Origin: Dysidea avara | Lineage: Eukaryota; Porifera; Demospongiae; Dictyoceratida; Dysideidae | Length of the DNA: 64,000 nt | Reading direction: 5' to 3' | Assembly: GCF_963678975.1 (NCBI RefSeq) | Contig: NC_089275.1 | Span: 15,035,682 to 15,099,681 of the forward strand | Shown: positions 1,961 to 32,117 of the stretch, one piece after another | How the letters are laid out: each line of letters opens with the position of its first letter | How positions within the stretch are numbered: the stretch's first letter is position 1 | Made by a program: the position numbers and the translations under genes | The notes under the pieces: model-generated | What the model saw: only the letters and a program-made list of their open reading frames with translations | Told to the model about the DNA's origin: nothing | The model's database searches: none

Positions 1961-2262
1961 ATAAGTAGCTTAGATTCATGTATAGTTTTGACTTTTGAGA
2001 AAGATTCCTCAGTAGGGTTTAGGTTGCTTGATCAGGAGAATATGGCAGTAGAAAATTAATGGACAAGAGCACCAGTTTCTTCAATTGTGCTTACTGCTGG
2101 TCCAGTATGATGAATAGATGCATTGTCTAAAATGACAACACTGACTGTTATGGCTATTGCAAAGGGCTGTAGAACATAGTTATCAGTAATACATGGTGAA
2201 TACTTGACTTTATTGCAAAAAAAAGGCGATACAATTAAAATTACTGATGAAACAATGGACAA
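1961..2262 (-). pseudogene. Remnant of a DDE_3 (IS630/Tc1/mariner-type) transposase
   Basis: Translation of the minus strand gives VVILDNASIHHTGPAV and STIEETGALVH. In shifted frames, between about 1960 and 2055, it gives LLPYSPD, LNPTEESFSKVK and TIHESKLLMAQ. Together these are the second and third catalytic blocks (DN..IHH and PPYSPDLNPIEE) of the DDE_3 transposase domain. The reading frame changes between the two blocks and the N-terminal part is absent, so this is a dead fragment. The same fragment lies in duplication copy B at 47680-47911 and appears deleted from copy C. Confidence 0.65.
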
Positions 2263-3479
2263 ACTAGCTATAGCTTGATTTACAGTAGCACTGGTGGTAA
2301 CAGAATTTATGCTAAAGGTCTAGCATAGCATAGCTGGTTGGTTTATTTTGTATTCTATCACCATTAAATTAAACATGCACAATTTGTAGAATAGATTACC
2401 ATGCAGCAGAGCCAGAGTGTCCAGGTGTGTCTACCACTGAAGTAATCAACAAATTACAAATACAATACATTCTTGTGTTAATTATACTACACTATACAAA
2501 TGAACTGAGTACTCACAACCTAGCCAAGTGATTGGCATATCCACACAACAAACACTGTATTTACAGTGTGTACACAACTGGACATGCAACTGGCAAGCAT
2601 ATATGTATGGATTTATTTATCGTTACATAGCCACAAAAGTAGCTACAATTAGCTATTGTAGACAATTTATAATCCTATTGTAATGAGACCAGCCTATATA
2701 ACCAACATGTATCCAACTTACGTAATTGTCCACTATATCATGTAAGTAACATTGTGTACAACTTTTTGGGTGAGAAGGTTTTATTAATGGATAAGACAAC
2801 AATTTCAACAATTTTAGTACGAGTATCACTTGGATTCCACACTATATCCTCTACAGTGTATACGGTATCCCTGTATGTATACAATTTCACTTAGGTGAGA
2901 TTTAGGTTTTCCTGCAAGCTGCAATTAATAACAACAGGATGAGGTGGACTAATCATTTGACCAAGAGTCCATTAAAATTTCACTGTCACAGCTAGAACCA
3001 AACTATAACAGACAAAACATGTTGTAATTATTTTGGAATAAACCATTAACATGCTAACTCGAGCATGTACAAGCATACCACAACACATTACTGCATGCTT
3101 TCCTACACAAACCGCCCTTCCACCGCACCAAGCTCTATAACATTACGGCATGCGACCACAACATAATTATTACAACAACACATCACTTTACAGACCAGTT
3201 ATAATACAGACATACATACATACACATACAACTCTTTGGGGGAGGTAGGGCAACTGAAGTATGATACACTAGCCCAAATAGGCAATGAGTATGTGTTATC
3301 ACTGTCACAGCAAACTTTACATAATACATCCAGTATTACTTATGTCAAGCCAGCAGCAGCAACATTCAGCAACCACATTGCAAACATACAATTGTAACAA
3401 GGATTAGCACATTCAGTTGTGACACATTAAATTTAGCATTTTGTGATAACACACACATACAGAGCCTTGGACTAGGCAG
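2263..3479. other. No gene seen; duplicated non-coding DNA
   Basis: AT-rich sequence with many stops in all frames. Up to about 2990 it belongs to the segmental duplication. From 3000 to 3479 I recognise nothing beyond short CA/TA-rich runs. Confidence 0.5.
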
Positions 3480-3812
3480 TTGTTGACTTTAATCATTCAG
3501 CAATTTGTGCCCACACCTCAGTTACCAGAAGCAACATATAAGAAAGCAGGCTATCAGGGTGGGTGGGTGGGAAATTTTGATATCGTTAACTTCACAAGCT
3601 TAGATCCTCTACTGCCTGAGGAGTATTCCAGGATCATTGACCCTGGTAAAGCACCAAACAATCATAACGTGACAGTAATAATGATGAGCAAAGCCAGACC
3701 TGTTACTATATTAGGATTGTGGAATTTAATTATGATGTGCACTTATATGCAACCAGGCGACAGATGGTCACACATGATGTTACATGTTGACAACTCACCC
3801 AATGGAAGCTAG
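3480..3812 (+). other. Unrecognised 110-codon open frame, possibly an exon
   Basis: An open frame with fairly balanced amino-acid composition (PTPQLPEATYKK, GGWVGNFDIVN, LLPEEYSRIID, GKAPNNHNVTVIMM). I do not recognise the family. The first codon is not a clear start: TTG rather than ATG. Its 3' end from about 3721, plus about 50 bp of following DNA, recurs in diverged form at 20316-20460 (shared stretches around GAAGCTAGCCTGTTAAC). This could be an old coding exon, a transposon-borne ORF or chance. Confidence 0.2.
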
Positions 3813-3942
3813 CCTGTTAACTTTTGTTTGTTGCTAGGGCAAAAAACTACATTTAATATAAAATGATATGTGCTGATGGCACTGACCAGTCATTCAAAGT
3901 TTTGCTGATTAGTTAGTTTTTCCTACACTGATAAACTAGAGG

Positions 3943-4012
3943 ATGATCCTTACAGTTGTGTTATTGCTTGATACCATCTTTGACATTTGGGGATGTGTAG
4001 ATATAACTCTAA
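3943..4012 (+). other. Possible first exon encoding a signal peptide
   Basis: ATG at 3943 starts MILTVVLLLDTIFDIWGCVD, a plausible secretion signal, and the frame meets a consensus 5' splice site (A|GTAAGT) at 4013. Nearly the same 20 residues are encoded on the opposite strand starting at 49261, there also followed by a GTATGT donor-like site. I could not find a convincing next exon; the first acceptor-like AG at 4056-4057 leads to stops. Confidence 0.25.
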
Positions 4013-4099
4013 GTAAGTATGTATATGTATGTAATTATGTAAATATACTTGATATAGAACTCCAGATTATTCCCTGGAAATTCATGGTACACAACTGAT

Positions 4100-5180
4100 C
4101 ATCTAACAGATCCATAGTAAGTATGCTAAAACATATACACATAGTACATGAAATCTAGAGATTGCTTGTCTAAAGGTCATGTACAGCACTGTAGGACAAA
4201 TGGGTTGCAAGACTTAGTAGCTCTTTTACTCTATGAAATGGTACAAATTAAATACTGTCAGTGGTTGTTCTGACTGTTGCTGAATTCAGTTATAAGCTAT
4301 GTCATATTTCCCTATGTAAATAAAGATAACACAGAAATATATATAGCAGGAGATTTGCAGGTAATTGCATACTATATACCTTCTATAACTCATGCAAGTG
4401 TTAGCTAGCTAAACTATTCTGTAGCTACACTTTGGATACAGTACTTGAATTGTAAACTCATGATTTACTAGTTAAAAAGATTGATAAACATGCCTCATTT
4501 TGTCATTAAATATAATGCATTAAACCTTGCTAAATACAAATTAAATTTTATTGCTGGGTATTAACCAGAGTAAGGTGATCAGATTAAATCACTATGTGGC
4601 TTCCTATCAGATGTGTGGTGGAATGTATATCCCTTGGGTGGCTATGCTGTCCGTTTCTGATCGACTGCAACATCTACTGTCTGACCATTGCCTTCACCTC
4701 TGTTGGCTCTTTTTCTTTCATTCCTTCATCCACTTCCTTCTATCCTCTTGAGCTAACTTCTTTGTACTCAACAAAACATTACACAGTCAAGTTTGTGGTG
4801 TCTTGCAAGTGTGCATGTATCAGTTCACATGTCAGTATGCTATCAAGTCAGCACAGATTCACCTTTCTGCTATATACTTCAAATGTTTGATCAGCCAATT
4901 AACTACCAGTATTCTTCAGTCAACACTCACCCTACACATGCAGAACTGAAGTTTACCACTTCCTGTATTGGTAAGATGCCTGTAACAATAATCATATACA
5001 GTTAACTGATTTCTTTTCACATATCAAAACATTTGTCAACTATTACTGTATATTATAAAAATCTGTAGCGTAAAACATACACGGAAATGACTAAATACAG
5101 TGCCATAACTTCTGCATACTTTAATTTATGGAGATCTGGTATGGTTCATCAGAATTCTTAATCAATGGCGAATTGAGTGA
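4100..5180. other. No supported gene
   Basis: Short open frames of 66-98 codons between 4551 and 5005 have no recognisable domain and cysteine-rich low-complexity composition. I regard them as chance. Nothing else stands out. Confidence 0.45.
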
Positions 5181-6612: not shown

Positions 6613-9159
6613 GGGGACATCTCCAAACTGATTTTGGTACGCTTAACGTCATAATGACGTTAAGGGGAGAGGGGGGTTCAGCCCATGACGTTATTAACTT
6701 TTATTAAAGCAGTTATAGTGTAAACAGCTATAGAACAGAGAAAGTGACGTGACTCAGCTATACTGTTTGTGGACTATGTTTTCAGGTAAAGAATATAACC
6801 AAGCGGCTTCTTTTCCGCGTAATGTACAGACTGGCTAGTATATTTTCGCATTTAACCACAAAGGCTATCCCAGACACAAGGGCGTGCGTTCAACTCGATG
6901 TTCAAGTTCACCACGAAGAGCATCGCTCTGTTGCGTAAAGAAGTGTGGCTGTTAACCTCGAAGATGAGCTTAAACCTAAGATCTCCCCAGTTACTACTAT
7001 TGATTCAATCACAATTTCACCTGATGATGTTCTTGGCCAGTTGAGCTCTCTGGATGTTACAAAGTCCTGTGGCCCTGATTGCATTACACCTCGTATGCTG
7101 AAGCTAACAGCTGATCATGTGTGCTATTCACTGAGTAGAGTGATGAATAAGTCTGTTATTTCAGGATCGTTACCTTTTGACTGGATTTCTGCCAACATTG
7201 TTCCCATTCATAAGAAAAACGACCGACATTCTCCTGACAATTATCGTCCAATTACTGTAGTTTGACCTCAATCATTGTGAAAGTTTTGGAACGTATAATT
7301 CATAAACATTTATATTCAGTATTGAGAAAAAATGACCTTTTGAGTCAGCACCAGTATGGCTTTCAACCGAATCGTTCTACAACTACACTTCTGCTTCAAG
7401 CTTTAGATGACTGGACACTCTCACTGGAGCACCGTGAGTCTGTTCACTGCTTGTTTTTGGACTATGCCAAGCTTTTGACTCGGTTCCACATGAACGGCTA
7501 CTTCTGAAATTAGAATCCCTTGGGATAAGTGGTAATCTGTTAGAATGGATGCGCTCCTTCCTTACTAAGAGATTTCAGAGGGTGGTTGTAAATGGTTCTT
7601 ACTCAGATTGGGCACCAGTCACTTCTGGAGTGCCACAAGGGTCTGTTCTGGGCCCTCTGTTGTTTTTACTTTACATAGATGAGCTGTCTTCAACACCTCA
7701 TGTGTGCAAATTAAAGCTGTTTGCCGATGATGTACTCCTTTATTTTAGTGTGAAATCAGTGAAAGATTGCCAGCTATTACAGAATGATCTTTCTGCTATA
7801 GTCTCATGGTCTAAACTGTGGCAGCTTAATTTGAATCCTCTTAAGTGTGAGGCTTTATCTATTACCAACAAAAGAAAGCCTATTACTTTTACTTATTTTA
7901 TTGGAGATCAACCACTACAATAGACTAATCTTGTGAAGTATCTGGGGATTCAAATTAATAGCAAATTACAATGGTCTACTCAATGTCAGGCTGTTGCTAC
8001 TAAGTTTAAGACGTACCATGTTTGGGTGTGATTCGGAGGCTAGATGTAGAGCATACAAGGCTATAGTAAGGCCACTGTTGGAGTATGCTTGTGTAGTGTG
8101 GTCACCACATACTGCTAAAGATGTGAATTTGTTGGAGGCTGTCCAGAGACGTGCTGCACGGTGGGCTTGTGGTAGTCGTTGGAACCCAACCACATGTTCT
8201 CGGTCTCTTCCCCATGAAACCTGTTATCAAAAGTTGCATTTACCTCCCTTGTGTTCCAGGCGTGACTATTTATCAGTTTGTACTCTTCAGGACATTCGTC
8301 ACAATGGTTCCATTCCTTTTCTGAAGTACTGTACTTACAACACGTTGGCTACACGTAGTCATTCTCTTTCTCTTGTACCACCCCTGTCAACAATTAATGC
8401 TAGGAGGTATTCTTACTTTGTACGGTTATGTTTTGTCTGGAATCAAGTGCCTATTGATATCTTGGGAATTGCAACCCGTACTGCCTTTCGCCATGCTGCA
8501 TATAAACACTTTTGTGGCATTTTCTAAGTAATTTATTGTTAATGTTGTATTGCTTTCGTGTATTGGTATTTTGTTGTGTAATGTTGTCTTTGTTTTGTAG
8601 CTAATGTTGTATTTTGTAGTTATTTTTGTATTCTGGACAGTACCTTGTACAGGCTTACACCTTTTGTACTTGTCCTTCCCGGTCTGTGGTAAATTGATAA
8701 TAATAATAATAATAAGATAACTCTGGGGGAGAGCGTCTGAGAAACAAATAAACACTGAACCAAAGGCGGAGTATCGCTTCCGAGATCGCTTCAAATTTTC
8801 ACTTCGTCGCCATGTTACCCTACCTTTGAGCATTCTTCAATTGAAGGAGCACTGTTCCCTGTACATACAGCTCAGTCTTTAGTTCAGTCTTCGAATATTC
8901 TCGAGGATTCGTCACGGTGCGGCTAAACTAATTACGGTAAGGAAACGAACAAATACTAGAAGCCTATGCGTTACACGGAAAGGAAGCCGTTTAACTTCTG
9001 CGCAAACAGCGTTAGACACTCTCCTCTCTTATTATTAACTCTTGATATAACGTTTCGTGCTTCTATTGCCAATGCATTGTTTTCATAGTGTGACGTTAAG
9101 GAGGGGGGGGGTCTGCATTATGACGTTAAGCGTACCAAAATCAGTTTGGAGATGCCCCC
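6613..9159. mobile_element. PIF/Harbinger-like DNA element with TTA target duplication, carrying a LINE
   Basis: About 45-bp terminal inverted repeats match between 6613-6657 and 9113-9159 (blocks CATCTCCAAACTGATTTTGG and TACGCTTAACGTCATAATG). Both ends are flanked by TTA (6610-6612 and 9160-9162), the target duplication typical of PIF/Harbinger. No Harbinger transposase was found inside; most of the interior is the decayed LINE at 6945-8716. Either a non-autonomous element was later hit by the LINE, or it captured it. Confidence 0.6.
6945..8716 (+). pseudogene. Decayed non-LTR retrotransposon reverse transcriptase (CR1/Jockey-like)
   Basis: Successive open segments give an RT domain in order. 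These are CGPDCITPRML and NIVPIHKK with NYRPITVV (to 7259), VKVLERIIHKHL and QYGFQPNRSTT (7262 onward), FLDYAK (about 7460), GVPQGSVLGPLLFLLYIDEL (about 7625), and the catalytic FADD at 7720-7731. After these come YLGIQINSKLQW and a C-terminal region with LLEYACVVWSPHT to 8527. Lesions: a frame break near 7262, a one-base loss in the DYAKAFDSVPHE block near 7470, a stop at 7921, and another shift near 8000. The element ends in a (TAA)n tail at about 8698-8716. An upstream endonuclease domain is missing, so it is 5' truncated. Confidence 0.75.
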
Positions 9160-21778: not shown

Positions 21779-21784
21779 TTTATT
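21779..21784 (-). terminator. Poly(A) signal of the NMT-like gene
   Basis: AATAAA on the minus strand, about 85 bp downstream of the stop codon at 21867-21869. Confidence 0.4.
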
Positions 21785-21866: not shown

Positions 21867-23608
21867 TCAACAAAAAGAAAACAGACAACATTTTTCCTCA
21901 TCAATTTCAGGATAGGCATAGTTGTAGAAGTGCCAGTAGTATGCACCAAATTGTACAAATGAATCAAAGTTATCTTTTTCAAGTCCAAATTGAAGAGTTG
22001 CAACTTTAACAGCTTGTTCTTGCTTGGCACAAAGTAGTAGATCAATGACAAGTTGTTTTGCTGGTGTTTTAGTAGGAATTATTGCAATGGCTGTAGCTAC
22101 TTTTTTGTCCAGTTCATAATCCAGGTTAAACCCAAACATATCAGTTATAGCACCAGTGGCAGGGTCCTCAACAACATACGTGACTATATAGCCTGGCACT
22201 GATGGAAATAGGAAATAGTGTGAGAACTCTTCTTCAGATTGAAAGATTTGCCCAAACTCAAACTGCAATACATACTGGTTGGTGAGAGTGTATGCCTTAG
22301 TAACATCTTTGGATGTCATCCTTCGCAATCCAGCTGTTTTGGGAGTGTTGTAGGGTAGAGGAAGACGAAATGGACTAGAGAGCCAATAACAATAAGTAGC
22401 TAGAACAGTTACAGGTTTTATAATGAAAGGTTCTTCGCTGACTATTATGCCTTGAGATATTCCATTTACGTTACCTTTCCTCATTATTTCTTTGACTACT
22501 GTATTGTGCATTTGTTCGCTGCGCAGAAATTCCCTACCAGTATAACGTAAATGCAAAGCAGTTACAACTTTTCCTCCAATACTAATGCAAATTGGAAAGC
22601 TATAAAGTACTGAGGCTAGCTTACCATTTGATTTTAATCTAGTTCCAAATAAAAATTCTGATTTAAATTGAGGATGCAAAGTGTACCACCATAGGTAGTT
22701 CTTATGCTTATACTGTCTGATTGTATTATCAATTTCAAGTAGCTTCACCATCTCATCAACATTGTCGTAGGTCAGATTGGCCCATTTTAACTCTTCGTGT
22801 AAGATATGTGGTTCCTTTCTCACATGCCTTGTTAATTTTACAATAGGGCCAATCATCCTATCATGTACTTCTTGTCCACGCCATAAAACAGGCAGCTTCA
22901 GCCACCACACAACTTTAGGAATTGCTAAGTAAGTGATTGCCTGTGGTGGGAGTTGAGATTTTTTCTTATTCAATGATAGGTATGCCTGATAAACATGATC
23001 AACATGAATGTGCCAAATAATTTTCACTGATCCAAGTACAATTCTACAAATTGTACATGTGTCTGAGCCAGTTTGGAAGAGTTCATTCTCCAGGTAAAAC
23101 CTATGCTTGTGTAATTCACCAATGGTCATTTTCTGGTGGTCCTTATTAAGAATCTCCTGTATTACAACATGACCAGGCTTTTCACGTACTATTACTGGAA
23201 AGTATGGTGCTGCTTCCTGAAGAGTCATGGAGAAGAATGTTTCTTTGAAATTTTTCAAAGACTGTTGTGCAGCAGGTACCATAGAAGCATTCACCATAGC
23301 CTCTAGCATTCTGGTGTCCAAGAAGTTCCAATATGAAGTTTGTGCTAACATTGTGCACAGAGATTGAAATGATAAAGCTGCAGTAACCATAGGAAGGATT
23401 TCATGTGACTTAGGAAATCGTTGTGACTTGGCACTCTCAATTGCGGCTCTTTGTATGATTGGAAAATGACGATTTTCTATAGCTGTTGTTACAGCACTTG
23501 AGAGTCTTGAGAAAGCTAATTCAATATCTTCATCCTTTGAAAATGTAAGTGGTGAGGCAACAGTTAAAGCTAGAGAATCCTTACAAAATCGTTGCACTGA
23601 TTGTGAAC
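21867..23608 (-). CDS. Last exon: sponge helical domain fused to N-myristoyltransferase-like domain
   Basis: The exon is open for about 580 codons and ends in TGA at 21867-21869. Numbering in the open frame: residues 5-255 are an all-helical-looking region with YWNFLDTRMLEAM, PAAQQSLKNFKETFF, MTIGELHKHRFYLE, GSDTCTICRIVLGS and LPVLWRGQEV blocks, which I remember from expanded sponge proteins of unknown function. Residues about 275-584 match glycylpeptide N-tetradecanoyltransferase (NMT), with KLASVLYSFPICISI, TPKTAGLRRMTSKDV (residues 426-440), YVVEDPATGAITDMFGF and YYWHFYNYAYP near the C terminus. NMT transfers myristate from CoA to N-terminal glycine. The CoA-binding RSKR-LAP region is poorly conserved (FLRSEQMHN). 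The exon begins after TTAG at 23609-23610 in phase 1, matching the donor phase of the Death exon at 31119. Confidence 0.75.
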
Positions 23609-23730
23609 CTAATTTAAACAAGACAAGCTACATAAGTTGTGTAGAGATCCAGTACATACAAAAGAGTCTGACTTACAAACATATAATGTATTATATATTA
23701 CTATGTACATGTTATATAATATCTAAACCA

Positions 23731-24050
23731 AAACAGCCAAGCTGTAAAAAAAGTGTGCGGCCCTCAAAAAGGCTATGGTGAAAAAAGATGTGAAATCCAA
23801 GGTGGCGGCCAAGAAATGGCTGTGATGGTAGGTTAATGGTAAAAATTTTAATAACGACAATTCAAGTGAATTTTTGTGCTACTTGGTCTTGGCAAAAAAA
23901 TTCACCTAAATTGCCGTTATTAAAATTTTTACCATTAACCTACCATCACAGCCATTTCTTGGCCGCCACCTTGGATTTCACATCTTTTTTCACCATAGCC
24001 TTTTTGAGGGCTGCACACTTTTTTTACAGCTTGGCTGTTTTGGTTTAGAT
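23731..24050. repeat. Near-perfect palindrome, about 150-bp arms
   Basis: The left arm from CAGCCAAGCTGTAAAAAAAG to ATGGTAGGTTAATGGTAAAA and the right arm are reverse complements with few mismatches around a short loop near 23880-23900. The transcript would fold into a very long hairpin. Other copies are at 42953-43270 and 28150-28420, with one arm at 53101-53210. Confidence 0.85.
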
Positions 24051-24119
24051 TTCATTTCTTTTTGTATTTGCATACCCCAAAGCCGGCCTTTGGGACTTTA
24101 TAATACATATATTTATCAT

Positions 24120-25690
24120 AGAACTCTTCATGGTGGTTTCTTTGTAACTGAACACTCTACAAGGGGACTTCTTGCTGCTCTCTCTGCAGGGTGAATGTTT
24201 GTAGCTGAACAATCTACAAGGTAACTTCTTCTAGCTGATCTATCTACAGGGTGATTTATTTGTAGCTGAACTATCTACAAGGTAACTTCTTTTAGCTGAT
24301 CTCTCTACAGGGTGATTTGTTTGTACCTGAATTCTGTGCAGGAGATTTGTTTGCAGCTGAGTTCTTTACAGAATGGTTTCTTTGTATCTGAACTCTCTAC
24401 AAGGTAACTTCTTATAACTGATCTTTCTACAGGGCAATTTGTTTGTGGCTGAATTTTCTACTGGGTGATTTCTTTGCAGCTGAACTCTCTACATGGTGGT
24501 TTCTTTGTAACTGAACTCTCTACAAGGTAATTTCTTCTAGCTGATCTCTCTACAGGGAGATTTGTTTGTAGCTGAACTCTCTACAGGTAATTTGTTTGCA
24601 GCTGAACTCTCTACATGATGGTTTCTTATAGCTGAACTCTCCACAAGGTAACTTCTTCTAGCTGAACTTTCTAAAGGGTGATTTGTTTGTAGCTGAACTC
24701 TCTACAAGGAAACTTATTCTGGCTGATCTCTCTACAGGGAGATTTGTTTGTAGCTGAACTCTCTACAGGTGATTTCTTTGCAGCTGAACTCTCTACATGA
24801 TGGTTCTTTGTAGCTGAACTCTCTACAAGGTGACTTCTTCTAGCTGATCTTTCTACAGGGTGATTTGTTTGTAGCTGATCTCTCTACAGGGAGATTTGTT
24901 TGCAGCTGAACTCTCTACATGATGGTTTCTTTGTAACTGAACTAGGTGACTCCTTCTAGCTGATCTTTCTACAGGGTGATTTGTTTGTAATTGAACTCTC
25001 TACAGGTGATTTTTTTGTAGCTGATTTCTCTACATGATGGTTTCTTTGTAGCTGAACTATCTACAAGGAATCATTTTGTTAACAATTTTGACAGTAATAA
25101 CCTATGTACTTTTTATTTCCGTTGCCCCTGTTCCAAATGTTTAAACATTCCAGCTCCTACAAACTATTTTATTCTTTAACTTGTACTCTTTATAGCTACC
25201 CCTTGTAATTGTTATTTGTAGTTATATAGCTTATTGTAATTTGTAAGTAATTAATTATGGCTACCAGTGCAAGACACTGGTAGACCTTCAGTTCTGTAAT
25301 TTAATTGTTATAAGCTCTTAAATATTGTTTAATTTTGTTTATTGATCTGTACAGTTCTGTAAAGTATTAATAATAATAATAATAATAAAAAATAATAATA
25401 ATAACAAGGTAGCTTCTTCTATTGATCTCTCTACAGGGCGATTTGTTTGTAGTTGAACTCTCTACATGGTAGTTTCTTTGCAGCTGAACTCTACAAGGTG
25501 ATTTCTTCTAGTTGAACTATCTCTTTCCATAGTTGCATAAACTCCCTACAAGGTAACTTCTTCTAGCTGATCTCTCTACAGGGTGAATTGTTTGTAGCTG
25601 ATCACTCTACAGGGTGAATTGTTTGTAGCTGATCTCTATACAGGTTACCTGTTTCTAGCTGATCTCTTGAATTCTCTTCAGGGTGACTGT
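24120..25690. repeat. 30/31-bp satellite array (copy I)
   Basis: Monomers of the type AGCTGAACTCTCTACAAGGT...TTCTT and AGCTGATCTCTCTACAGGGTGATTTGTTTGT alternate for about 1.5 kb. It is the reverse complement of the array at 40.9-42.77 kb, where a four-monomer, about 122-bp higher-order unit is clearest. Confidence 0.8.
25090..25400 (+). mobile_element. Insert in the satellite ending in (TAA)n, LINE 3' end-like
   Basis: About 300 bp of unique sequence splits the satellite and ends CTGTAAAGTATTAATAATAA followed by more TAA units. A TAA tail is also seen on the LINE at 8.7 kb, and the final stretch resembles its 3' UTR (CTGTACAG...TTGTA). Probably a 5'-truncated LINE. Confidence 0.45.
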
Positions 25691-26531
25691 TCTATTAGGA
25701 TGACTGCTCTATTAGAGTATCTCGATCTCGCACTTGCTGCACCAAGTTGGATTTCGTGTTATAACTCCGTGGCTTTAAGTCTGATTCTTCTACACCATTG
25801 AAGAGCCTTTCTAAGATGATTACTCCATCTATACAGCGATTTTCAAAGCATTACCCCAAGCGGTTTATCTGGTAGGCGTGGCAAGTAATAGTTTTTTATT
25901 AGCTAATCTCGATTGCGTAATTGTTACACACTGTTGGTTTTTTCGTTGTATCTTCCTGGTTTTTAGCTCGATTTCTTTCAAACCACAAAAGGTCTGAGGT
26001 TCAATAGTTAACCTATTCACCCACCGATTTTCAGCTTCTTCCCATACGCGGTTTACCCTGTAGGCGTGACAACATATTGGTGTTATTTTTCGTGAATAAT
26101 CGCTCATAACTCTTTGCCTGTGTATCGTATTCCAACCAAAGTTGGTACAGAGATGCGTCTTTATATCCCCCTTCTGTGTGCCAAATTTCAAGGCGATCGG
26201 ATATGGCGTTCGCGTTTTATAGCAGTTTTTGTAAGTGTGCGAAAAGAGGAAGAAAAATAAGAAGAAAAAAAACGAAGAAACTAAGCCAATTTTTGAAGTC
26301 GCATATCTCGGGAACGCTTGAAGCGATTTCTCTCAAATTTGGAATGTGGAGTACTGAAGGTGGAGGGAATGTCCACAGCAAAAATCGTCTTGTTTCATCA
26401 AGGCAGCACAGAGCTACGGAGGTGCGAAAATTGCGTTTTCTTCCTTCCTATCAATATACTCACGGGTGTTGCGCGCCGGCTTCTTGGGCCGCACGACACA
26501 CTACCGTGTGTCTTGACATTACTACCTAATA

Positions 26532-26757
26532 TAATAATTTGAAAATGAAGTAGGGACCTAAGTGATAAAAAGTAATGAAACAAGAGATGAATGATAGTAT
26601 TACAGCATGGGTGCATGGGAAATGCCTATATACATTGGAATAATGCAATTATTTTGTTCGTTGTCAAAGTAGGTATTTTACCACTGAGCCATGCTGTAAT
26701 ACCATCATTCATCTCTTGCTTTACTGCTCAGATACCTACTTCATTTTCAAATAATTT
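26532..26757. mobile_element. Small inverted-repeat MITE
   Basis: AATTTGAAAATGAAGTAGG at the left and its complement CCTACTTCATTTTCAAAT at the right, with mirrored AGAGATGAATGATAGTATTA blocks inside. About 225 bp. Confidence 0.55.
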
Positions 26758-27057
26758 TTTTAAATGTACTAGTTTGTTTAGTTTTTGCAGCTATATAGCT
26801 ACACACATGACTAATCTGTTAGAGTGTCTGCTGTATTAGAGTATATCAAGTCATCCAAGGGGCGCAGTCACTTTTCCTTATTTACTGAGGTTTTCACCAG
26901 TTTTCAAATCTGCATGACGCCATGCATGAGAGCAGACCGGAGACCGGTTAGCATAATGGCAAAAGGCTGTGTGTGCAATCACGCTAACTGCTACGTACTC
27001 ATGCACAGCATCACGCAGATTCGAACGCTGGTGAAAACCTCAGTAACCTTGCTATTA

Positions 27058-27700
27058 TCAAGACACATGGTAGTGTATCATGCAGCCAAGAAAACCAGCG
27101 CACCACACCTTGAGTATATTGACAGGAAGAAAGAAAACAGCTTTTTCACGCGTGCATAGCTCGATGGCCCCTTCTCCAAAGCACACCATTTTTGCATTAT
27201 ACCTGTCTGCCACGCCACACAGCAAATTTGATTAAATTTGCAACAGCCATTTGCCAGATATGGGTGTTCAAAGTTTCATTTTAATTTCTTCTTATTCCTT
27301 ACGGGGGGGGGGGGGGGGGGGGGGGGCTATAGGGTTTTGATTTCTTTATGCAACACTTTCCAAAAATCGCTATAAAACGCAAACGTGTAACTTGATTGCC
27401 TCGATCTTTGGCACAAATGAAGAGCGTGTAACGGTGGATTCATGTACCAATTTTGCGAGGAATATCCAAGGAGTTATGAGCATTTATTAATGTAAAAAAA
27501 ATCTAACTTCTGTCATGGCTACAACGTAAATGGAGTATAGGAATAACTTGAAAATTGGTGTGTAGATAGGCTGATCATCGTAGCAGTGCCTTTTGATAGT
27601 TTGGATAGTAATAGATCTAGAGTTACAGTGACAAAGTTATAAAGCAAAAACCAAACAAATGTAAAATTGCGGGATAGAGATACTGTAATAGAGTGGTCAC
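27058..27700. mobile_element. Composite element, copy IV (diverged tail portion)
   Basis: Begins TCAAGACACATGGTAGTGTA like the inverted copy II, followed by GAGTATATTGACAGGAAGAAAG and GCTATAAAACGCAAACGTG blocks. It runs to the diverged motif ATACTGTAATAGAGTGGTCA at about 27680. A G23-24 run lies at 27303-27326. Neither satellite nor palindrome follows. Confidence 0.5.
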
Positions 27701-27734
27701 CACAGGGTAAAAAAGGTGTACAAAAAATGGCAGA

Positions 27735-27830
27735 AAAAAAACCTTACCAGAGTTCGAACCAGGGACCTCCTTACCTAACACCTGCATCCTTAACCACTGC
27801 ATCACTGCTACTTTGGCTGATCACCTCATT
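27735..27830 (-). mobile_element. tRNA-like SINE head (family 2, copy 1)
   Basis: The minus strand reads GATGCAGTGGTTAAGGATGC (A-box region), then GGAGGTCCCTGGTTCGAACT (B box), then a T-rich tail. The same order occurs at 34631-34702. The stem ends do not pair as in a functional tRNA. Confidence 0.5.
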
Positions 27831-28149
27831 TAATTTCAGCTTTACGAAAGAAATTTCTAGTTGAAATCTACTTATAATTAAATGTTTGTAATTTCATAGA
27901 TCTACCAATGGAAGTACTAGATTGTTCTAGAGCATTCTATGTATGTTCTATTAGAAGTCCTCAAAAAATGTGCACTCTATTAGAGTATTACAATAATATT
28001 ATGAAGTATTGAATTAAATCATGCAATGAAATACATTTATAAGTATGTCTGCAATAATCATCATTGTATCTGCTTACAAAAGAAGAAATGTGAGTAAACA
28101 CAAACCTCAAAGTCAGCCATAGGCTGGTTTTGGAGCCTTATAAAGTACA

Positions 28150-28420
28150 AAAAGAAGCGAAATCCAAACAAAAACAGCCAAGCTGTGAAAAATTCATGCA
28201 ACCTTAAAAAATCCTGGGTGAAAAAAGTATCAAAATCAAAGGTGGCGGCCAAGAAAAGGCTGCAATGATGTTAATGCTAAAAGATTTTAATAATGCAGCT
28301 TTTTAGCATTAACATCATTGCAGCCATTTCTTGGCCCCCACCTTTGATTTCACAACCTTTTCACCCAGGCTTTTTAAGGTCGCACCATTTTTCACAGCTT
28401 GGCTGTTTTTGTGTGGATTA
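28150..28420. repeat. Diverged solo copy of the long palindrome
   Basis: Arms CAGCCAAGCTGTGAAAAATT ... GGTGGCGGCCAAGAA and their complement around a loop at about 28285-28300. Same ends as the 23731-24050 palindrome but without satellite or tail. Confidence 0.7.
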
Positions 28421-29615
28421 TAAATACAGCTAGACCAGTAAGCGGTTGAGGTCATCATGTTCAAGTAAAGAGGTGACTGTGGTCTTTATGCTTGATCATT
28501 ACTAGTCAAATTAAGATTCTACAGTAAATGGGCAGGGTTTCAAACCTATCATGCAGTTACAGGTATCTACCAGGCATCCAGTACTTTTCACAGTAGCGTA
28601 AGTAATTTAAATAATTTTAGTGGTATCTAATATGCTACTCAAGCAAAGTGTTAATGTGGAAATTAATGCCTCAATATGGTTCATTGCATAAAGAGGACGG
28701 TGACCAGCCTGAAGATAAAAGGAAAGACAAGGAGCAGGGGGCACACACTTGTTAGAACCACATGCCACTGGTGAGTTTGTTATTGTGATGTAAAATAGTG
28801 GTTGTGGGTTGCTTGATTTGGCCTACAACCTTGTGACTGTGGTCAGGCAGGCAAGTAGGCTGGCTAGCTGGTAGAACAAAATTTGTGAGTTTAAGCAATT
28901 GTCTTGTTTTTATTTAATTCTGCATCCAGCCTTCTGTAAGTGTTCTCATATTTTTATACTGTATCACTGATGTTAGATGGACCAATATTCCATAAATGTG
29001 ATTTTTGTCATGTAAGATGTCTCTAGGATGATTTTTAAAATTGACATTAAAACTTTTAGGTGGCATGCATCATTGTAAGGTCAATCCCTACTTAAACAGT
29101 ACTACTGTACTGTATGATACAGTAAGTCTGAGTTTACACCAGATACGTATGTATGATGATACATATAATGTATACACAAAAATACTGACATACATATACA
29201 CAACCACACCCACATACACACACATACAGACCTAATCACCTTATAAGGTGATACCACAGACACACACACATGCACACAGACACACACACACACACACACA
29301 TACAAACATGCATATGGTTTGACCATGCCCACAATACAGATAATGAAAAAATTACCCACTGTGTGCTACTGCCAGTGAAATTTCTTTAGTAGTAAGTGGA
29401 TGCTTACCCATCCAGGGTAAAGCCCATGTATCTACAGTTTAGTTGAAGATGAAAACACTCTAGAAAACAGATAGGTGCTAAAAGGAATTTCCATGATATT
29501 ATTGGACTTATCCGTTCAATCTGGCATAATTAGCTACAATGTTAAACAGTACCTCCCATAATCAGATTGCTTTAGGCGTGCATATAAAAACATATGAAGT
29601 GGTTGACTCGTGTAG
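28421..29615. other. No gene seen; CA-rich microsatellite
   Basis: Non-coding. A broken (CA)n tract lies at about 29190-29310. No domain or mobile element end is recognised. Confidence 0.45.
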
Positions 29616-30913
29616 TAGAGTGGCATAGCACCAAAAAAATGAGCATTTCGTGCACTTTGTGATACAATTATGAAACTTTCCACACAAATTGTGCTCCTCG
29701 TGACATAAGTTTTTTATATAGAGCCATCACGGAATTGACCTTTGGTGACCTTTTCAGCCATTTTTTTCATAGAAAATTAATCATTATTGTCTTTATCTCC
29801 CTGAGGCATTATTTTACACTCTAAAACATGGTATCAAATTAAAGGTGTCGATCTAAGAACTATATTGACTTTTGTTTGAAGTTAGTAACTCATTCTACTA
29901 CAAAGTTATGATCATTATTATAAGTCATAAAATTCTTTGCCCTTGGGGTGTAAATTACTAATGGGCAAATAATTCATAGGATTTCATGGCTAATATAAAT
30001 GTGACTGGATTTTGGAAAAACGATCCGAATCGCACATTAGAAGTTTCGAGATAAACGGTTTTAAAGAATTCAAGCCAGCATAACTCTCCAAGGATAGCAA
30101 GTATGCGTATAAAATTTAAACTAAGGATGCGTCAATCTGTTACCTTTCAGACCACTTCCAGTACTTGTAGCTGCTTGTAGAGTTTCCCGACAAATAAGAT
30201 AGAAATCTGAGCTGTTGGAAGAGCGAAGTAGTATCACGAGTGCTCACAAAGGGGTGGGGGTGGGGGTGGCGGGGTGGGAAAGGGTTAGACCTCAAAATGG
30301 AGGCAGACCACGATTGGAGTCCTGAGATGAGATTACAAGGCTGTGCTGGCACCTTAGTGGGCTGATATGTAGCAAAATCCACAGGAAAAATATCTGGCCT
30401 ACATTATCAGGCTGTCCACCAGTAAATCACTGTGTCTTACCAAGCCAGGTCCTTCACAAGGCCTAAAACCGCCATTTGAGCTCTACGCACACCCCAGAAA
30501 AGACGTCTGTTGAAACCGGCCTCGAGTAGTTTGAGTGGTGCCAAAACTACTGGTACGATAGTGTAGCTATCCACTGGTGATGTTGGTTTGATTTTGTCTG
30601 ATGTGCGATTTGGATTGGTTTTGTAAAATCTGGTCACAAATGATCATAACTTTGGAATGCAATTATCTATTGAAAAGCCGAGTAGGTTGTTTTAGCAGCA
30701 CCTTTAATTTGAAACTGTGCAAAATGATACCTCAGGGAGATAAAGACAAAAATGATGAATTATCAATACAAAAATGGCTGTAAAGGTCACTATAGGTCAA
30801 GTATGCAATGACCCTATATCAAAAAAATATATGTCACAAGGAGTACAACTTATATGGAAAGTTTCATAATTGCATCAAAAAGTGCACAACTATCGCACTA
30901 TGCCGCTCTACTA
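29616..30913. mobile_element. DNA element with long (about 250-bp) terminal inverted repeats
   Basis: 29616-29860 and 30690-30913 are diverged inverted repeats (TAGAGTGGCATAG at one end, CTATGCCGCTCTA at the other; both contain CTCCCTGAGG(C/T)ATTATTTT or its complement). GTGTAG flanks both sides (29610-29615, 30914-30919), possibly part of an 8-bp duplication. The interior codes for nothing recognisable. It lies in the intron between the NMT-like and Death exons. Confidence 0.6.
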
Positions 30914-31118
30914 GTGTAGCAAATCAATGAGCAAAAGGGAGATTTGCAATACCTGAGGTCGGGTTTTTAAATAATTTAATAACCTGCTAGCAGGTCTTTT
31001 AGTCGATTTTAAAGACCTCGTTATCTCCCAAAGATCACAGCATTTTATGCATACCATTTTCTAAGCTATAATAGTTTTAAAGCTATACATTTCTTTTCAG
31101 TAAACTGCTAAACTTTAC

Positions 31119-31412
31119 CTTCAGTGGAAGACACTAACATTTCTTCAATCTTAGATGCTACATCATTTAATTCAATTCCAGGTGCCCTCAGTGTTTTAAT
31201 TAACTGGCTCCATGTAGCCTCAGGATGCCTGTGTAACCATATCTCCAACATCTCCTCACAAGCCTTACTGGAATTTGTAGCATGATTTGTTTTGATGACA
31301 TGCAAATCCTTCACATTTTCTTCATCTAATAGCTCCAACCCAACATCATACCATTTTGGAACAATCAATTCTCTTACATGTCTCAAATGTTTATGAGTTG
31401 GATGATCAGCAC
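31119..31412 (-). CDS. Internal exon encoding a Death domain
   Basis: The 98 codons contain a Death-fold-like region. HLRHVRELIVPKWYDVGLELLDEENV and NSSKACEEMLEIWLHRHPEATWSQLIKTL follow the helix 1 to helix 5-6 pattern of Death domains, with the conserved W of ATW and the LxxWL-type helix. Death domains are protein-protein adaptors in apoptosis and innate signalling. The exon is bounded by a strong acceptor (CGTATCTTAG before 31412) and donor (GAAG|GTAAAG after 31119). Both borders are phase 1. The next minus-strand exon with a phase-1 acceptor is the helical/NMT-like exon 7.5 kb downstream, and joining them keeps the frame. The first coding exon was not found. Confidence 0.62.
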
Positions 31413-32117
31413 CTAAGATACGACATGTAATGGTAGCAAGAGTAAACAATTTATTCTTGATGGTAGTGAAGTAACTTTTCTACTAGGACAAATGACACAA
31501 ATCTTGAAAAGGGGTTACAGAGAAGTGAATAATTTACTTGTTTTGCACTTCAATTTATGTAGCCAATTGTACTTTTCATGTATATACTTAACAAGTAATT
31601 TCTTGCGCATTAAAAGGTACTGCACCTTACAATACTAGGCATATCTATCTGTAAAACTGTTATAATTATTGGTAGCATTTGTGATCTTAATTATAATATT
31701 ATTATGATGAACTTCAATGCATGGACAACACAATATTCCTGGTTGAACACTAAAAAGGGGAACTGTACATATGTACGTATGCTATGCATCAATCCCAGAC
31801 TCTTTGAAGTGGTAGTAAATTTGGCTTATATTAAACATTCAATAATGGAAGCTTTCAGAGTTGAAACTAATCTCCACAAAGTATTACTCTACACCAATTT
31901 GTATGGTTTACTGAACAAAATAGGGTCTGTGGCTTCGATTATATCTGTGACATTGGGGTGGTAGAACCAGGTAGGCAGGGTATTTTGAATGCTGTCAATC
32001 AAAAATGTCCTAATAGAGTAGTCGGTGATCGTTCTTTTGGAGTATTTCTTAGTAATTTTGCTTAGTGTTCCCAGGTTCTATCTCAGAAAACCATACTTTG
32101 CAGACACCTCTAGCCAT
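31413..32117. other. No gene seen
   Basis: Upstream side of the Death exon. An 86-codon plus-strand frame at 31704-31964 has no domain. One diverged copy of the dispersed motif (CCTAATAGAGTAGTC) lies at about 32010. Confidence 0.4.

Follow-up and report, generated by a model that had tools for sequence, protein, structure and literature searches.

The stretch of DNA analysed here, referred to as the window in the following, comprises 64,000 nucleotides from the demosponge Dysidea avara (C4:15035682-15099681 in the 550.8 Mb and 108 contigs of the genome that we searched). Its reverse strand carries an exon for a Death domain and, downstream of it, an exon for a helical domain followed by a domain related to N-myristoyltransferase (NMT). 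Death-fold domains (Death, CARD) signal by assembly, and NMT is usually regarded as a housekeeping enzyme. A first-pass annotation, made from the letters of the window, had proposed that one gene joins these domains, which would put either lipid modification or a derived acyl-CoA fold into an innate-immune or cell-death adaptor. As described below, the genomic evidence strongly supports a single gene; it belongs to an expanded family in which NMT catalysis looks lost and which may act in death-fold signalling.

Two exons with compatible borders

The Death exon is delimited by the acceptor ATCTTAG/GTGCTG (31413/31412) and the donor CTGAAG/GTAAAG (31119/31118), and the helical/NMT exon begins at the acceptor TTAAATTAG/GTTCACAA (23609/23608). 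When the two are spliced, a GGT (Gly) codon is restored and 677 residues are read up to a single terminal stop. The exon borders, strand, splice sites and phase-1 junction reported in the first-pass annotation were recovered base for base, as were its glycine codon, its open frame and its domain motifs, with Death, NMT and NMT_C all above their Pfam cut-offs. The Death exon matches Pfam Death (PF00531) over residues 14-92 of 97 (34.6 bits, cut-off 22.6, E-value 2e-8), and the NMT-like domain matches both NMT_C (58 bits, cut-off 27.9, 1.3e-15) and NMT (44.2 bits, cut-off 25, 2.5e-11). Likewise, 44 of the 45 PDB matches of the NMT exon at E ≤1 are NMTs, the best at 9.9e-19 and the exception at 0.63. 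NACHT and LRR domains are absent from the Pfam scan (E ≤1), which covered these two exons only. Since the acceptor of the Death exon lies in phase 1, at least one further exon is expected upstream; no conserved start was found there for this preceding exon. The helical domain has no consistent match in Pfam, where six families each appear in one of 13 members, and has a single PDB match, at 0.057; no relative was identified in either database.

Evidence that one gene joins the Death, helical and NMT-like domains

By chance, two splice sites agree in phase one time in three, so that their agreement is weak taken alone. The join rises above chance because the same exon pair recurs, in the same order, on the same strand and with the same splice positions, in three paralogues. 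These places on the same contig (L035-L037) are 93-94% identical to the NMT exon of the window, and each is closely preceded on its strand by a Death exon with 91-92% identity to that of the window, the introns between measuring 911, 943 and 926 nt. Their donor is GTAAGG, one base different from the GTAAAG of the window, and their acceptor ATTAG/GTTCACAAT. The window's own intron of 7510 nt matches the paralogous introns from both ends, with positions 1-478 of the L035 intron aligning to 1-481 and 474-862 to 1118-1506, and differs by two insertions totalling ~6.6 kb, which account for the 7.5-kb spacing of its exons.

The join also exceeds chance because Death places lie upstream of NMT-like places genome-wide, far beyond the expectation from local shifts. 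A genome search with the protein of the NMT exon yielded 75 rows, namely 45 NMT-like places, six second fragments and 24 helical-only places, and the genome holds 48 NMT_C matches. At least 17 of the 45 NMT-like places have a Death place within 15 kb upstream on the same strand, whereas 1000 local shifts of the NMT-like places average 0.31 and never exceed 3. Within the same distance, none of the Death places listed lies upstream on the opposite strand, and at least two of the 45 have one downstream on the same strand. Here and below, Death places are the best 150 of 684 candidates, with twelve hand-picked Pfam Death places left out of the linkage counts, and CARD-like places are the best 150 of 353 candidates for scoring, of which 148 are listed. 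Furthermore, locus L021 encodes a CARD-like domain in place of Death, the helical domain and the NMT-like domain in one uninterrupted frame of 711 residues with its own ATG, so that the fusion there requires no splicing. Taken together, the short-intron paralogues, the genome-wide linkage and the single frame of L021 strongly support the reading of the window's sequence as one gene, in agreement with the first-pass proposal, and answer the one-gene question as far as genomic data permit.

An expanded family with two kinds of N-terminus

The family comprises ~45 NMT-like places, a number that includes gene fragments; by manual count, 34 of them span the full length and contain no stop. In the 20 kb upstream, at least 19 of the 45 have a Death place on their own strand and at least 15 a CARD-like place, for which the shift control has a mean of 0.48 and a maximum of 4. 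Among the places listed, no NMT-like place has both, and none of the death-fold places lies upstream on the opposite strand. The two kinds of N-terminus follow the similarity of the NMT-like places to the query. At least 17 of the first 20 rows by score, which we call group 1, have an upstream Death place, compared with at least two of the other 25, which include fragments (some of the group-1 kind) and L009. Conversely, CARD-like places listed occur upstream of none of the first 20 and of at least 15 of the remaining 25. Searches of prokaryote and viral contigs found no relatives of the family.

The CARD-like exon, common to the second subfamily, was found by comparing the open frames upstream of NMT exons. 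A profile built from six such exons matched seven of 26 oriented loci, including the six from which it was built; each match shares the strand of the NMT exon and precedes it, except in L021, where the two lie in a single frame. The N-terminus of L021 is 54% identical to the CARD-like exon of L011 (3.6e-23). In a genome search with one CARD-like exon, the top 13 of the 148 places listed, the query being the first, all lie upstream of an NMT-like exon on its strand; those ranking 14-20 do not. In Pfam, three of the four exons scanned match CARD alone (0.0013, 0.0019 and 0.053), L021 matches CARD at 0.15, and L028 has no match. In a profile search of the PDB, the best CARD is that of RAIDD (0.17), which ranks behind a designed protein (0.095). 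We use the label 'CARD-like' because all CARD matches fall under the Pfam cut-off or are weak in the PDB.

In a tree of 18 members together with L009 and human NMT2, a Death clade unites seven members with Death and one with an unassigned N-terminus, and a mostly CARD-like clade unites five CARD-like members, one with Death (L029) and four with unassigned N-termini. These labels predate the CARD-like linkage list, and L026 was labelled Death from a place 12.7 kb upstream of it. The topology suggests at least one exchange of N-terminal modules, provided that L029 and the Death exon upstream form one gene.

Two loci differ from the rest in their architecture. In L026 (C9:21.64M, oriented positions 6848-7870), the frame of the NMT exon extends upstream through dozens of seven-residue repeats of the SQGPFQS type, which abut the helical domain and are possibly a repeat linker or a chance open frame. 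L009 (C1:63389136) is the most NMT-like member (4.2e-56 to human NMT2) and combines a diverged helical part with the NMT part in one frame, and none of the Death and CARD-like places listed lies within 20 kb of it; it may resemble the founder of the family.

The helical domain also occurs independently of the NMT-like domain. At least nine of the 24 helical-only places have a Death place within 30 kb upstream on the same strand, and Death-helical proteins lacking NMT may therefore exist; such a combination may be the older unit, an order that we infer. In L038 and L039 (C5:27.9M and C6:34.8M), another small open frame comes after the helical-only relative, and L038 has in addition a frame that looks helical-like by eye; none of these has a Pfam name. 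We regard these two loci as a sister family without NMT.

Loss of the catalytic residues

According to PMC7048800, human NMT1 uses Tyr180, Tyr192, Asn246, Thr282, the backbone of Phe247/Leu248 and the C-terminal carboxylate, and the hydrogen-bond networks of the pocket are strictly conserved in NMTs. We aligned 19 members of the family, four of them near copies, to human NMT2. Asn246, Tyr180, Tyr192 and the aspartate of the GDG motif are lost in all 19, and Thr282 in 17; at Tyr180, Tyr192, Asn246 and Thr282, the window has Arg, a gap, Arg and Val and so does not carry the residues of an active enzyme. At 15 pocket sites, taken from the literature (Tyr296 on a bare mention only), the members retain 0-2 matches each to human NMT2, compared with 22-32% at other sites. 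Furthermore, the family alignment shows a deletion or rebuilding of the Ab-loop. By these substitutions, NMT catalysis looks lost in the family, and on the losses in the 19 aligned members we reject an active NMT fused to Death. Of the two options in the first-pass annotation, the derived acyl-CoA fold is consequently the better fit, while lipid modification sits poorly with the loss of catalytic and substrate-pocket residues.

The lysine and arginine of the HKKLRSKR stretch bind CoA phosphates, as is general knowledge for the GNAT fold; Lys257 and Arg258 of this stretch are kept in all 11 members formed by the CARD-like group and L009, and in none of the eight of the Death group, the window among them. 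The chain ends 14-17 residues after a YN/CN motif in 17 of 19 members (17 after YN in the window), compared with 16 in human NMT2. In many members, ends rich in Cys or aromatic residues, such as CCLFSFC in the window, take the place of the NMT tail, and the C-termini of L020 and L027 extend ~40-55 residues further. A separate gene with several apparent exons, of which the C-terminal half was read (C3:773913-775676), has the motifs KFGMGDG and YYLYN. Beside this canonical NMT gene, L013 contains an open frame of 769 codons (2250-4556; C3:770.2-772.6k), which consists mostly of the short repeated peptide SDVLVTEC.

Variability and selection

Around the former groove, the family is unusually variable, clearly so in the CARD-like group and less clearly in the Death subfamily. 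In the CARD-like group (10 members), the entropy at positions up to two residues from pocket sites is 2.33 bits, compared with 1.05 bits elsewhere, and none of 331 circular shifts is as high; for these figures gaps were dropped and 29 of 49 sites scored. When gaps are counted as a state, the excess in this group persists (matched by 0 or 1 of 374 shifts), and its most variable centres are near residues 172-198, 285-287, 420 and 470-475. In the Death group (five non-redundant members), the values with gaps dropped are 1.44 and 0.88 bits, with one of 333 shifts as high. With gaps dropped, four MAFFT modes agree on the excess near pocket sites.

Among four close copies, a simple NG86 count gives ratios of nonsynonymous to synonymous change (dN/dS) of 0.11-0.27 in the helical part, 0.24-0.60 in the NMT part and 0.12-0.55 in the Death part, where the range covers five of six pairs and the sixth lacks synonymous changes. 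Ratios below 1 among these copies point to purifying selection.

Other features of the window

The features of the gene are collected in Table 1. Elsewhere in the window, a reverse-transcriptase fragment lies at 7438-7920 on the forward strand (RVT_1, 1e-22) with neighbouring frames at 6939-8527, of which the one at 7937-8524 has no Pfam match; on the reverse strand, an open frame at 43305-43685 matches a Chlamydia PMP repeat (6.3e-9).

Table 1. Features of the proposed Death-helical-NMT gene, in window coordinates
Feature	Position	Strand	Remarks
Death-domain exon	31119..31412	-	294 nt, phase 1 at both ends; Pfam Death 2e-8; splice sites read; 91-92% identical exons in three paralogues
Death-exon acceptor AG	31413..31414	-	AG/GT acceptor at same place in three paralogues
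Death-exon donor GT (GAAG/GTAAAG)	31117..31118	-	GTAAGG at same place in three paralogues
Intron	23609..31118	-	7510 nt; homologous to the paralogues' 911-943 nt intron plus two insertions
Insertion 1 in intron	30002..30637		~636 nt; limits are alignment ends
Insertion 2 in intron	23658..29612		~5.95 kb; contains tandem array 24124-25068
Terminal exon: helical and NMT-like domains, stop codon	21867..23608	-	1742 nt; 579 codons after the junction Gly, then stop
Helical domain	22917..23606	-	Residues 1-230 of exon; motif YWN-F-L-D; helical-only relatives elsewhere in genome
NMT-like domain, catalytic residues replaced	21870..22916	-	Pfam and PDB matches, residue alignment
AATAAA, possible poly(A) signal	21779..21784	-	~83 nt past stop; such hexamers not enriched in window

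Proposed function and alternative explanations

We consider it somewhat probable that the family is an expanded set of intracellular death-fold proteins, either receptors or adaptors, in which a pseudo-NMT serves recognition and which stand in parallel to the Death and CARD NLRs (NOD-like receptors); the receptor function itself we infer. In such proteins, the N-terminal exon (Death, or CARD-like in the second subfamily) would engage a death-fold adaptor or a caspase, the helical module would link or oligomerise, and the C-terminal pseudo-NMT, its catalysis lost, would be the recognition part and bind through the diversified surface of its former peptide/acyl groove. The ligand could be a microbial peptide or protein that is acylated or ends in glycine. 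Alternatively, it could be an effector that targets the real NMT, in which case the pseudo-NMT would be an integrated decoy, or, for the CARD-like group, acyl-CoA. The stronger version of this proposal, a new class of animal innate immune receptors with ~45 copies and fragments, most with a Death or CARD-like tip, that sense ligands via a dead, diversified NMT groove in parallel to NLRs and lack a NACHT motor, is one we put forward tentatively and would not yet bet on.

Several observations weigh against the proposal. The variability pattern fits a diversified binding surface, but it fits drift or relaxed constraint at a dead site as well. When gaps are counted as a state, the Death group, to which the window belongs, has no significant excess near pocket sites (72-142 of 374 shifts as high across four alignments), and its most variable stretch, residues 141-147, lies outside the groove. 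Likewise, the 15 pocket sites alone have no significant excess in either group (69 of 374 shifts for CARD-like, 187 of 374 for Death). Eleven of the 45 NMT-like places have neither a Death nor a CARD-like place within 20 kb among those listed, and the best score of four scanned CARD-like exons (19.2 bits) falls short of the cut-off of Pfam CARD (PF00619, 23.9 bits). The dN/dS ratios come from four near copies only and carry no significance test. Lastly, single-sequence structure predictions have confidence scores (pLDDT) of 39.5 and 32.4, too low to use.

Two other explanations appear unlikely to us, to a similar degree. According to the first, the NMT-like domain still transfers or binds acyl-CoA, and would be a derived acyltransferase or an acyl-CoA or lipid sensor through which lipid state would feed into death-fold signalling. 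The Lys257/Arg258 pair kept in the CARD-like group and L009 and the distance of the chain end from the YN/CN motif favour this idea. Yet the pair is missing from the Death group including the window, Asn246, both tyrosines and mostly Thr282 are gone, and the Ab-loop is deleted or rebuilt. According to the second, the pseudo-NMT is a scaffold or dimerisation module only, the family consists of regulators or adaptors of NLR signalling rather than of receptors, and the variability of the groove is drift after catalysis was lost. Such drift is indeed expected at a dead site, the Death group has little groove excess, and the 24 helical places without NMT, at least nine of them with an upstream Death place, suggest that Death-helical proteins may occur without an NMT part. 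However, the expansion to ~45 places with alternative Death and CARD-like N-termini resembles receptor families, as does the variability of the CARD-like group, which is focused on one surface over a conserved framework.

It is very improbable that the copy in the window is a pseudogene undergoing decay. The ~6.6 kb of insertions in its intron and the 11 of 45 NMT-like places that are broken, partial or diverged by manual count would be in keeping with decay, but no stop interrupts its 579 codons, and comparison with the three near copies gives a dN/dS below 1 for the Death, helical and NMT parts alike. Least credible are two neighbouring genes, for which the 7.5 kb between the exons could be cited, but which we reject on the ~0.93-kb introns and matching splice sites of three paralogues, in line with the linkage across the family and the single frame of L021.

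Relation to known systems

The family can be compared with several systems already described. NMT1 and NMT2 consist of two adjacent GNAT domains (PF01233 and PF02799), and the family resembles them by homology over both halves, a conserved framework and a chain that ends at about as many residues from the YN motif. It differs in the loss of catalytic and peptide-pocket residues, in its single coding exon and in the fusion to helical and Death or CARD-like domains; moreover, its ~45 places coexist with a separate gene carrying canonical C-terminal motifs.

The sponge NLRs offer another parallel. According to PMC12909245, the NLRs of Dysidea avara (NLRC/NLRD) carry either CARD or Death, so that an N-terminus of two flavours has a precedent in a demosponge. 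Both are lineage-expanded in one genome, in which we count at least 105 NACHT places (the best 105 of 703 candidates). Unlike NLRs, the window exons have no NACHT or LRR in the Pfam scan, and the recognition part would be a pseudoenzyme. The receptors of plants with integrated decoys (PMC4246468) are likewise signalling proteins that have incorporated the copy of a host protein; in the sponge family this relation is hypothetical, and the signalling part would be death-fold rather than a plant NLR. Finally, the pseudo-caspase FLIP(L) (PMC7586951) is also a pseudoenzyme tied to death-fold signalling. Its dead enzyme is itself a caspase, whereas here it is an acyltransferase from another pathway.

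In open-licence full texts, we found no paper that combines N-myristoyltransferase, death domain and sponge. The one such text that combines myristoyltransferase with Porifera deals with goldfish nocturnin, those that combine N-myristoyltransferase with caspase recruitment domain are not relevant as judged by their titles and the opening of their abstracts, and the phrase 'myristoyltransferase domain' was absent from the papers listed by a looser open-licence search.

If the proposed function is correct, it would mean that the fold of an acyltransferase can be converted into a recognition domain, and that an early animal lineage would possess a second large death-fold repertoire beside its NLRs.

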